Shown piece after piece: positions 5,151 through 17,382 of a stretch of DNA of 52,122 bases. Origin of the DNA: Nanobdellota archaeon (GTDB lineage Archaea > Nanobdellota > Nanobdellia > Parvarchaeales > Parvarchaeaceae). A model generated the notes under the pieces. The model saw only the letters and a list, made by a program, of their open reading frames with translations. It did no database searches and was not told where the DNA came from. Each line of letters opens with the position of its first letter. The first letter of the stretch is position 1. Location: NCBI GenBank assembly GCA_021794235.1, contig JAJYRE010000007.1, positions 1 to 52,122 on the forward strand, given 5' to 3'. The translations under genes were made by a program, and so were the position numbers.

Positions 5151-5233
5151 TATTTTCATTTCCATTCTTCTCTAATATCTAGTTTTAGGTGTTCTTATTG
5201 GATAGAATCGTAAAACTTAAATCGTAAACTTTT

Positions 5234-5254
5234 TATACTAGTATAACTAGTATA
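5234..5254. promoter_or_regulatory. Putative autoregulatory operator upstream of RHH-MNT gene
   Basis: Perfect 12-bp palindrome TATACTAGTATA (5234-5245) and tandem 9-mer ACTAGTATA x2 (5237-5245, 5246-5254), between TATA-like TTTTTATA and ATG at 5259. Confidence 0.7.
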
Positions 5255-5258
5255 ACTT

Positions 5259-5750
5259 ATGAATATAAGTGTAAAAAATGTAAATGAGGCAACTTTCAGA
5301 AAACTGAAGGCTATGTCGGCAGAATTGCAAAAATCAATGGGAGAAGCACTGACGGAGGCTGCAAATGAATGGATTGATAAAAATAGAAAAATATTGTCAG
5401 GCTTGGAAAATATAGTAGAAAAAGCAAAAACTGACAAAGACGTAGTTGCGGTAATACTGTTCGGCAGTTTTGCCAGAAGAGAGCCGACGTTCAGGGACGT
5501 CGACGTAGCTATCCTCCTCAAAGACGGGAAATACGATTATGTTAAGAAGGAAACAGATTACTGGCCTTCTGATATCTTTGATGTATCAATACTCAATAGA
5601 CTGCCCCTGAATGTTGCGGCAGCGGTTCTCGAAGGGGGAAAAATTCTGTTCGTATCAGATTGGAATGAATTGGAGGACTTTTCGATTAGGGTGGTAAAAC
5701 AGTGGTCTGATCTTAAACCGTTATACCGTGAACTTATATCGTCTGAATAG
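5259..5750 (+). CDS. MntA-like minimal nucleotidyltransferase antitoxin with N-terminal RHH domain
   Basis: N-terminal MNISVKNVNEATFRKLKAMSAELQKSMGEALTEAANEWI (RHH/CopG-like), then GSFARREPTFRDVDVAIL (GS-X9-DxD). Confidence 0.85.
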   Translation: MNISVKNVNEATFRKLKAMSAELQKSMGEALTEAANEWIDKNRKILSGLENIVEKAKTDKDVVAVILFGSFARREPTFRDVDVAILLKDGKYDYVKKETDYWPSDIFDVSILNRLPLNVAAAVLEGGKILFVSDWNELEDFSIRVVKQWSDLKPLYRELISSE

Positions 5751-5752
5751 GC

Positions 5753-6178
5753 ATGGAAGAAAAAATAGGAGAAAGAATCGGCGGAAGACTTTCTAAACTA
5801 GAAAGTTGTTTGACATTGCTAAAGAAAATGACTCCAGATACGTATGAAAAATACAAGGATTCCGGGATGGAAGTGAAATGGGATCTGGAGAGGGGTCTGC
5901 AACTCATAAGTGAAATCGAATTTGACATTGTGGTGCTTTTGAGCAAAGCATTGAAGAAGGGGCCGTTTGGCGAAGAATCCTCTCTTTTAATGTCCGTTTC
6001 AAAAGAACTGGGTGAAAATATTGTAGTGACTATAAAGGAAAGAAGAAGGCTGAGAAATGAATTGGTGCACGCTTACACTATAGATAATGACGAACAGGTA
6101 TTTGATCAGGCTGCGGATACGGGAGATGTAGAAAGATTCAACCGTGCTGTAAAAGAATTGCTCGGAAAATTGAAGTGA
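5753..6178 (+). CDS. HEPN-domain (HepT-like) toxin
   Basis: All-alpha protein with RNELVHAY, an exact RX4HXY HEPN motif; 2-nt gap from the MNT gene. Confidence 0.85.
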   Translation: MEEKIGERIGGRLSKLESCLTLLKKMTPDTYEKYKDSGMEVKWDLERGLQLISEIEFDIVVLLSKALKKGPFGEESSLLMSVSKELGENIVVTIKERRRLRNELVHAYTIDNDEQVFDQAADTGDVERFNRAVKELLGKLK

Positions 6179-13175: not shown

Positions 13176-13240
13176 ATAATATGAATTGTCCAGTTTAGTA
13201 TAAATATATTAGTCTGATGGTCTTATCTTCTATATCCGGT

Positions 13241-13311
13241 GCGCTAGTAGTCTAACGGCAGGACCGTGCCTTCCCAAGGCACTAATCCGGGTTCAAATCC
13301 CGGCTGGCGCA
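13241..13311 (+). tRNA. tRNA-Gly(CCC)
   Basis: Acceptor gcgctag/ctggcgc, anticodon arm gtgcc-ttCCCaa-ggcac, T arm ccggg-ttcaaat-cccgg, no CCA. Confidence 0.93.
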
Positions 13312-13370
13312 GTAGTACATCAAAAGACGTTCTGATCCATATCCGATATCGATTAATACGCAAATCTTTA

Positions 13371-13392
13371 TAAGTAAGAAAAATCTTACTTA
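13371..13392. promoter_or_regulatory. Putative AbrB-type operator: perfect inverted repeat
   Basis: TAAGTAAGA-AAAA-TCTTACTTA, 9-bp perfect arms, overlapping TATA-like CTTTATAAG and ending 3 nt before ATG at 13396. Confidence 0.75.
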
Positions 13393-13395
13393 GTT

Positions 13396-13836
13396 ATGGA
13401 CACTATAGTGAAAACCGTATTGGTATCTTCAAAAGGGCAGATAGCAATCCCAAAAGAAATAAGAAAGGAAGCGAAGATAAAAAATGGTGACACGCTTCTG
13501 CTTATAGAAAGAGCGGATGAGATAATTCTTAAAAAAGCGAGTAGATTATACACTCTAACCTTACCAGAAATAAAATCAACGGTAGTGCCGATACTTAAAC
13601 GCTACAATGCCAGGAAAGCCGCACTATTCGGCTCTTTCGCCCGCGGCGAAGCTACCACTAGCAGCGACGTGGACATTCTGGTAGACCTTCCAAGCAACAC
13701 CTCAATGTTTATACTCATCGATTTAAAAACGGAATTGGAAGAGAAACTGGATAGACCTGTAGATCTTGTTACTTATGACACAATAAACCCCCGCATCAAG
13801 GACCGCATTCTGAAAGAGAAGGTGGAATTGATATGA
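13396..13836 (+). CDS. MntA-like nucleotidyltransferase antitoxin with N-terminal AbrB/SpoVT domain
   Basis: VSSKGQIAIPKEIRKEAKIKNGDTLLLIERADEIILKKA (AbrB swapped-hairpin) fused to GSFARGEATTSSDVDILV (GS-X10-DxD). Confidence 0.88.
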   Translation: MDTIVKTVLVSSKGQIAIPKEIRKEAKIKNGDTLLLIERADEIILKKASRLYTLTLPEIKSTVVPILKRYNARKAALFGSFARGEATTSSDVDILVDLPSNTSMFILIDLKTELEEKLDRPVDLVTYDTINPRIKDRILKEKVELI

Positions 13837-14168
13837 TAAAGGACCAGCTTGTACTAGTTCATGACCTAGTTGACGCAATCGATAAGATAGAAGCCTATAC
13901 AAAAGGGATGAGCGAAGAAGATTTTTTGGGAGATGCTAGAACGCAGGATGCAGTTATACGCCGTCTTGAGATAATAGGTGAAGCCACAAAAAATATCTCC
14001 TTAGATTTCAAAGATAGACACAGTGACCTTCCTTGGAAGAGGTTGGCTGGCCTCAGAGACATTCTTATACATAAATATTTTGATGTAAGATCAAAGGCGA
14101 TTTGGGAGATGCTTAAAGTCGACCTGCCGCCATTAAAGGTAAAGCTAAATTCTCTTCTAAAAGAGTAG
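13833..14168 (+). CDS. HepT-like HEPN/DUF86 toxin
   Basis: DAVIRRLEIIGEATKNIS and LRDILIHKYFDV containing RDILIHKY (exact RX4HXY); ATGA overlap with the MNT gene. Confidence 0.9.
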   Translation: MIKDQLVLVHDLVDAIDKIEAYTKGMSEEDFLGDARTQDAVIRRLEIIGEATKNISLDFKDRHSDLPWKRLAGLRDILIHKYFDVRSKAIWEMLKVDLPPLKVKLNSLLKE

Positions 14169-15812: not shown

Positions 15813-15864
15813 TGTATCATAATACAGTTAAATGTAAAAAATAAATGTATCACGATACATTTAT
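15813..15864. promoter_or_regulatory. Tandem TGTAT-N4-ATACA operator sites upstream of ATPase gene
   Basis: TGTAT-CATA-ATACA at 15813-15826 and TGTAT-CACG-ATACA at 15846-15859 (centres 33 bp apart); the second lies in a perfect 11-bp-arm palindrome ATAAATGTATC-AC-GATACATTTAT (15841-15864). Confidence 0.75.
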
Positions 15865-15888: not shown

Positions 15889-17382
15889 ATGGTTGATATA
15901 AGTGATTTAACAGTTCAAAATCCGTGGTGGGTATCGGGTAAATTGGTGAATGATCCGAAACTTGAAGAGTACGACAGTTCTAAGTTTAAATGGGATCCCA
16001 GAATCAGGAAAAAAATATCCTTAGAAACAGAAGGCGTTTATATAATACGGGGTGCCAGAAGAATAGGCAAAACCACTCTTCTAAGGCTCGTTATACGCGA
16101 TGTTTTATCAAAAGGCTGGAAAAGCCAAAATATATTTTTTTGGTCGTGTGATAATGTTAACGATAGAAAAGAGCTGCACGATATAATAAGTACATATCTT
16201 AAGTGGGCCGGCAACGAAGACATAAAACTTATTTGTATAGATGAAGTAACATTCGTTCCGGAGTGGGAGTTGGCATATAAGGCAATATTTGAGGAATTTG
16301 GACTCTCTAACAAAATATTTTTATTTACGGGATCTTCCTCCTATGACCTTAAAGTGAGCAGTGAACGACTGCCGGGTAGAAAAGGTAAGAATGGCAGAGC
16401 ACAGATACTTTTTGTACCAATGAAATTTTCAGAGTATATAAAGCTAATAAAACCCAATCTTTACCGGCAGTTGGTTAACGCCTGGGGTATAAGCGGCGAG
16501 TTTGGAGTTTTGTCGTACCCCACAAAAGAATTGCATGAACTATTACTGAATCCAAAAAGACGGAAGGATTTGACGCTTCTGATTAATAGGATGATGCCAT
16601 TGAAGAATCAGTTGGATAATCTTATTGATGGCTTTATCTTGACGGGAGGGGTTATAAAACCGATAAATGAACTCCTGTCCTCGCATAAAATAGAAAATTC
16701 AACCTACGAAATGTATATAGAATGGGTTCTTGGAGATATATCCATGTTAAATCTCAGCCAGAAGACTGCGAAAAACTTGATGAGGTCTTTGATTAGTAAT
16801 ACCGGAAATATGGTTGGTTGGAAGAGGCTTTGTGATAACAGTGGAATAAAGGAAGAAAGAACGGCAATGGAGTACATAGAAGCGTTAAATACAATCTTCC
16901 TGATAAATTACACAGAAAAGATAGATCTAAACAAAAAAGGCCCTGTTTTGAGGTCAAACAGAAAGTTTTATTTCACAAACCCTTTCTTCTACCTCGCCTT
17001 CTCAAACTATCTTAAAAACCCGGCGTCAGACTATTTTATAGAGAGCAAGAAATCACTAAACGACCCCGAGATAAAATCTAAATTGGTAGAGGGAATAGTT
17101 TACGATCACCTCATCAGACTTGCATACAACCTCAATCCGAGCGACCTGTTCGATCCAAAAGACATAGTATTCTATTCCTATGCAGACAAAGAAATAGACT
17201 TTATTTTAAAGAACGGAAACGCAGTTTCTGCGTTTGAACTGAAATATCAAAATAAAATCAATTCCGAGGATTATAAAGGGCTTCAAAAATTCAACGGTAA
17301 CAAATACATGATAAGCAAGAACGAACTGGATCTAGAAAACATAATTACAATCCCCCTTTCGATATTTTTATCTCTTGTATAA
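15889..17382 (+). CDS. AAA_14/DUF4143-type P-loop ATPase
   Basis: IIRGARRIGKTTLLRLVIRDVL (Walker A), IKLICIDEVTFVPEW (Walker B), FLFTGSSSYDLKVSSERLPGRKG, C-terminal nuclease-fold-like KEIDFILKNGNAVSAFELKYQ. Confidence 0.88.
   Translation: MVDISDLTVQNPWWVSGKLVNDPKLEEYDSSKFKWDPRIRKKISLETEGVYIIRGARRIGKTTLLRLVIRDVLSKGWKSQNIFFWSCDNVNDRKELHDIISTYLKWAGNEDIKLICIDEVTFVPEWELAYKAIFEEFGLSNKIFLFTGSSSYDLKVSSERLPGRKGKNGRAQILFVPMKFSEYIKLIKPNLYRQLVNAWGISGEFGVLSYPTKELHELLLNPKRRKDLTLLINRMMPLKNQLDNLIDGFILTGGVIKPINELLSSHKIENSTYEMYIEWVLGDISMLNLSQKTAKNLMRSLISNTGNMVGWKRLCDNSGIKEERTAMEYIEALNTIFLINYTEKIDLNKKGPVLRSNRKFYFTNPFFYLAFSNYLKNPASDYFIESKKSLNDPEIKSKLVEGIVYDHLIRLAYNLNPSDLFDPKDIVFYSYADKEIDFILKNGNAVSAFELKYQNKINSEDYKGLQKFNGNKYMISKNELDLENIITIPLSIFLSLV

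Follow-up and report, generated by a model that had tools for sequence, protein, structure and literature searches.

An AbrB-headed MntA antitoxin and its candidate operator in an archaeal HepT/MntA module

In the type VII HepT/MntA module SO_3166/SO_3165 of Shewanella oneidensis, the antitoxin gene comes first in an overlapping operon, the antitoxin carries a GSX10DXD motif, the toxin carries RX4HXY, and palindromes lie near the promoter. The archaeal module described here shares this layout, and its catalytic motifs match those of the described system, in which the MNT protein AMPylates HepT on the RX4HXY tyrosine (Yao 2020, PMC7641770). No DNA-binding domain has been recognised in the Shewanella antitoxin (PMC4621449, PMC7641770), yet SO_3165 binds its promoter and weakly represses its own expression (Yao 2015, PMC4621449). 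The archaeal antitoxin, in contrast, has an AbrB head and a single perfect candidate palindrome.

AbrB/MazE antitoxins bind palindromic sites and repress their own operon. Like the antitoxin studied here, MazE and VapB, which are AbrB-type type II antitoxins, combine an N-terminal swapped-hairpin domain with a palindrome before the operon; however, they block the toxin by binding it directly through their C-terminal part, whereas in the archaeal antitoxin a predicted toxin-modifying enzyme takes the place of that part. A DNA-binding domain joined to one component of the MNT/HEPN system is also found in the HEPN-RHH fusions of the paREP1 family. Makarova 2009 (PMC2701414) notes these fusions and proposes a DNA-binding component in trans; there the head sits on the HEPN protein, outside the MNT operon, whereas here it sits on the MNT antitoxin. 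The accessible text of Anantharaman 2013 (PMC3710099) does not mention AbrB, and the open-access literature, where absence is not proof, yielded no account of a DNA-binding head fused to an MNT antitoxin. As far as that literature shows, modules with fused heads are a type VII variant not described before.

The AbrB-MNT antitoxin and its HepT partner

The module lies in a stretch of 52,122 nucleotides, here called the window, which is contig 20 of a 25-contig, 714,732-base archaeal genome (G000). This genome probably belongs to a small-genome (DPANN-type) lineage other than Micrarchaeota, since the sample of its phylum has no member in common with one drawn around a Micrarchaeota record. An earlier note, made from the letters of the window alone, had described an AbrB domain fused to a GS-X10-DxD nucleotidyltransferase, followed by an ATGA-overlapping HepT with the motif RDILIHKY. 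Domain matches above cut-off and an intact ortholog in the genome G013 bear out the fusion, and the HepT frame and its profile match (Table 1) bear out the partner gene. Residues 8-49 of the antitoxin matched TIGR01439 (1.8e-12, 46.8 bits; cut-off 28.3) and PF04014 (2.7e-9, 37.3 bits; cut-off 24.7), swapped-hairpin scores above cut-off for membership in the AbrB/SpoVT/MazE group, and this is the sole AbrB match in the whole genome by PF04014. Residues 64-145 matched PF18765 (6.7e-16) and PF01909 (1.7e-15), with the GSX10DXD motif present as G79-S80-X10-D91-X-D93 and D123 as the likely third acidic residue. The closest solved structure to this domain is PDB 1wot (1.3e-9). In a structure model of the antitoxin the MNT half is good (pLDDT mostly >90), whereas no AbrB relatives were in the input alignment, which leaves the AbrB half unreliable.

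The antitoxin gene comes first and HepT second, with the ATGA overlap at 13833-13836, and the RX4HXY motif of HepT reads RDILIHKY. The module shows three features of type VII membership, namely a GSX10DXD antitoxin, an RX4HXY toxin and an antitoxin-first, overlapping two-gene operon; the NCBIfam equivalog profiles gave 55.1 bits for MntA (NF047752; 5.8e-15) and 41.8 bits for HepT (NF047751; 8.3e-11), both short of the cut-off of 60 bits, which counts against the assignment.

Table 1. Features of the two MNT/HEPN loci in the window.
Feature	Position	Strand	Description
First-module candidate operator	5233..5255	.	TTATACTAGT-ATA-ACTAGTATAA, perfect inverted repeat
First-module antitoxin	5259..5750	+	possible RHH head and distant MNT; PF18765 4e-11
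First-module HEPN toxin	5753..6178	+	PF01934 3.9e-6; RX4HXY = RNELVHAY
tRNA-Gly(CCC)	13240..13312	+	left flank of AbrB-MNT module
TATA-like box	13367..13373	+	TTTATAA, ~26 nt before ATG; position shared with G013 ortholog
Candidate operator	13371..13392	.	TAAGTAAGA-AAAA-TCTTACTTA, perfect 9-4-9 inverted repeat
Antitoxin ORF	13396-13836	+	146 aa, single intact ORF
AbrB/SpoVT swapped-hairpin DNA-binding domain	13396..13545	+	residues 1-50 of antitoxin; profile match residues 8-49
MNT (MntA-type minimal nucleotidyltransferase) domain	13546..13836	+	residues 51-146; profile match residues 64-145
HepT (HEPN toxin, putative RNase) ORF	13833..14168	+	111 aa; PF01934 6e-29

The G013 ortholog of the antitoxin has the same length and architecture and 79% protein identity, which rules out a frame or assembly artefact as the source of the fusion. 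Synonymous sites between G000 and G013 are near saturation (pS 0.5-0.77), and dN/dS, computable for AbrB and HepT only, is about 0.09 for the AbrB part, indicating strong purifying selection, and about 0.05 for HepT. Nucleotide homology between the two copies runs from about window position 13360 to about 14137, within HepT, so that the promoter, the operator and the two genes form a conserved unit; the DNA farther upstream is unrelated (19/60 identical). A third copy, in G015 (L036), is decaying: it keeps 21/22 bases of the candidate operator, its antitoxin is frameshifted, its HepT is truncated, and it adjoins tRNA-Leu(CAG). The module does decay, then, and the window locus might itself be an inert remnant whose fusion has no function; however, neither gene is disrupted in G000 or G013, the catalytic motifs are complete, and the dN/dS values are low (0.05-0.09 for AbrB and HepT), which makes this reading highly improbable.

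A candidate operator over the promoter

The palindrome at 13371-13392 overlaps the TATA-like box and directly precedes the ATG, and the distance between box and start codon makes a leaderless transcript likely. All 22 of its bases are identical in G013 despite the near-saturated synonymous sites. Among 57 genomes, its 16-bp core was found without mismatch, once each, only in G000, G013 and G015, which are the genomes among those 57 that have the AbrB-MNT module. Just four perfect inverted repeats with arms of at least 9 bp and a gap of at most 6 exist in the 52-kb window. Two, at 5233-5255 and 13371-13392, each sit directly before one of the MNT genes, one is 25 bp before an AAA/DUF4143 gene, and one is inside an ORF; the chance of such a repeat in promoter-like random sequence is about 0.004 per upstream region. 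The repeat before the AAA_14/DUF4143 ATPase gene (15889-17382) is a perfect one with 11-bp arms (15841-15864) and lies across cytochrome b from the AbrB-MNT module.

We think it probable that this is a mobile type VII HepT/MntA module that has become self-repressing through capture of an AbrB head together with an operator. The antitoxin would be translated first, and its MNT domain, to judge from the motifs and the Shewanella system, would AMPylate the tyrosine of RDILIHKY in HepT and so block this putative RNase. The AbrB head would dimerise and bind the palindrome over the TATA box and the transcription start. Bound there, it would repress the operon, as expected from AbrB/MazE antitoxins and from the co-occurrence of heads and motifs described below, the operator being a prediction from sequence. 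A covalently acting antitoxin would thereby gain negative feedback of the kind that characterises type II antitoxins. The placement of the palindrome suggests that the AbrB-MNT pair may switch off its own gene, and the fusions suggest that heads and sites change, and are exchanged, together. These fusions, each with a predicted site of its own, bring the DNA-binding component into a single protein, and how type VII modules set their own dose can therefore be tested directly using the 146-residue protein and a probe of 22 bp.

The head might instead be a degradation tag or stability switch that frees HepT under stress, with the upstream repeat secondary, for example in transcription attenuation. 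Turnover of the antitoxin recurs throughout type II systems; however, no part of the antitoxin is better conserved than the head (45/50 residues identical to the G013 ortholog, versus 70/96 in the MNT part), and the repeat sits before the coding region, within an AT-rich promoter, with no T-run after it. We regard this explanation as improbable.

Head types, upstream motifs and their origins

The N-termini of 134 MNT ORFs were taken from relatives, and 96 of these proteins, including all bacterial ones examined, are headless and about 95 residues long. On HepT-paired MNTs, AbrB heads were found in the window, in G013, in G015 (broken), in two genomes of family f5 (G374 and G316), and in G403, which belongs to the phylum Thermoplasmatota. 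RHH heads occur at six loci, all within the genus of the window; that of L034 matches PF24434 and VAPB. C4 zinc-ribbon heads occur at three loci of the same genus, including L011, and a head of about 60 residues, YTEI, at 16 loci in several families (e.g., L063, L068, L134 and L141). A search for a Pfam family of the YTEI-like head found none, a weak negative given that the query was a composite sequence, and this head may be a DNA-binding domain of a new kind that has a fixed operator. Two further MNTs have N-termini of other kinds: that of L075 (G356) is vaguely AbrB-like, without a Pfam match, and the start of this gene is directly preceded by a palindrome with 10-bp arms, ATTACGTAATATTACGTAAT; that of L161 (G1093) is an unassigned head about 98 residues long, possibly a winged helix, and an intact HepT follows this MNT.

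The upstream motif follows the type of head. The AbrB-MNTs L083 and L084 of f5 and L143 of G403 have palindromes with 9-10-bp arms just upstream; the f5 site is TACAAGATATATCTTGTA in L083, with one base different at the edge in L084, and the G403 site, GTAAGAATGTCTTACATTCTTAC, shares the GTAAGA/TCTTAC half-sites with the window. Sites upstream of RHH heads read GGTATACTTAAGTATACC and similar. Upstream arms of at least 7 bp were found at 9/11 loci with AbrB- or RHH-type heads and at 5/82 loci without a head (Fisher p 1e-7, a test that overstates independence here, with counts inflated by the relatedness of the loci), and the link between head and motif is seen in several separate lineages. The TATA box is flanked by CGTCTACA-N19/20-TGTAGACG at 13/16 loci with YTEI heads and at 0/118 of the others. 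The zinc-ribbon class has direct repeats, ATGAGTATGAGTA or a close variant, without a consistent palindrome, so the pairing of head and palindrome is not universal. The earlier note had suggested that these antitoxins regulate themselves, and this idea gains sequence support from two of the four window repeats lying upstream of MNT genes and from a head type that predicts the motif.

The same comparison bears on whether the head itself reads the site. A separate host regulator, or an MNT/HepT complex without the head, could read the palindrome, with AbrB only oligomerising the antitoxin or bringing it to DNA or RNA. SO_3165 is a bare MNT that binds and mildly represses (1.6-fold) its own promoter, which has two palindromes (PMC4621449), so a head is not strictly needed for autoregulation. 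Headless MNT loci, however, mostly lack palindromes of this kind, and the variation of the motif with head type, together with the absence of the exact core from module-less relatives, makes a shared host regulator unlikely. On balance we consider head-independent reading of the palindrome rather unlikely.

AbrB, RHH and YTEI heads with their own operators appear, from these sequences, to be interchangeable cassettes on MNT cores in these archaea. A broader proposal, for and against which we see equal weight, is that small-genome archaea repeatedly swapped head-plus-operator cassettes (AbrB, RHH, YTEI) before a constant MNT-HepT core, giving a self-repressing covalent antitoxin, and that YTEI would be a DNA-binding domain not described before, one that recognises CGTCTACA-N19-TGTAGACG across the TATA box.

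The AbrB head needs three changes both on the MNT tree and on the MNT+HepT tree. A single AbrB clade was rejected by the AU test (p 1.4e-4), which excludes one common origin of all AbrB-MNTs, as was a grouping of the window lineage with family f5 (p 5e-6); a grouping of the window lineage with G403 gave p 0.22, compatible with a common origin. The window head is closer to the stand-alone AbrB protein L058 (25/48 identical) than to the other fused AbrB heads (18-19), in line with separate captures. Judged from these trees and counts, AbrB-MNT fusions are rare and arose at least twice; they were found in 1/344, 0/348, 0/246 and 0/251 genomes in samples of four other phyla, at a cut-off of E 1e-26 or better that weaker fusions would escape. 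For the RHH heads, a single clade gave p 0.40, and exchange between AbrB and RHH within the genus of the window is not forced by the tree. Convergence, which the earlier note had proposed, is supported for the AbrB-MNTs as a whole; these trees do not require it on the RHH side or for G403.

Other modules of the genome and genomic position

The first MNT/HEPN module of the window had been read as carrying an unrelated DNA-binding head. The MNTs of the two window loci are alignable over 20 residues only, and the HEPN pair is likewise barely alignable, which rules out a recent duplication. Different N-terminal stretches do sit at the same place before the MNT core; the RHH assignment of the first head is weak, as its FitA-like match (E 0.03) falls below the Pfam cut-off. 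Four MNT/HEPN modules were found in the source genome, each with a different-looking N-terminus. The third (L011:2173-2912; G000:C6:16172-16911) has a C4 zinc ribbon (CGSC...CPVC) at the N-terminus of its MNT, a head that recurs in L055 and L132 with similar upstream direct repeats. The fourth MNT/HEPN-like pair (L012:974-1959; G000:C17) belongs to another subfamily, with an N-terminal stretch assigned to no family and a 10-bp-arm inverted repeat just upstream.

No relative turned up when viral contigs were scanned, and the two best plasmid matches inspected are headless. The Brucella plasmid match H10 had apparent near-full coverage and was set aside, as its annotation describes a short MNT of ~97 residues without a head. 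In a close relative, G011, whose neighbouring cytochrome b is the most similar (74%), the site is empty: tRNA-Gly(CCC) lies no more than about 10 bp after cytochrome b, and the same two further genes come next. In the window, by comparison, tRNA-Gly and cytochrome b are about 920 bp apart, module included. This arrangement may reflect gain in the window lineage or loss in G011, and no target-site duplication was found at the module. Copies of the module other than that of the window sit in different contexts, and two of the three copies adjoin tRNA genes.
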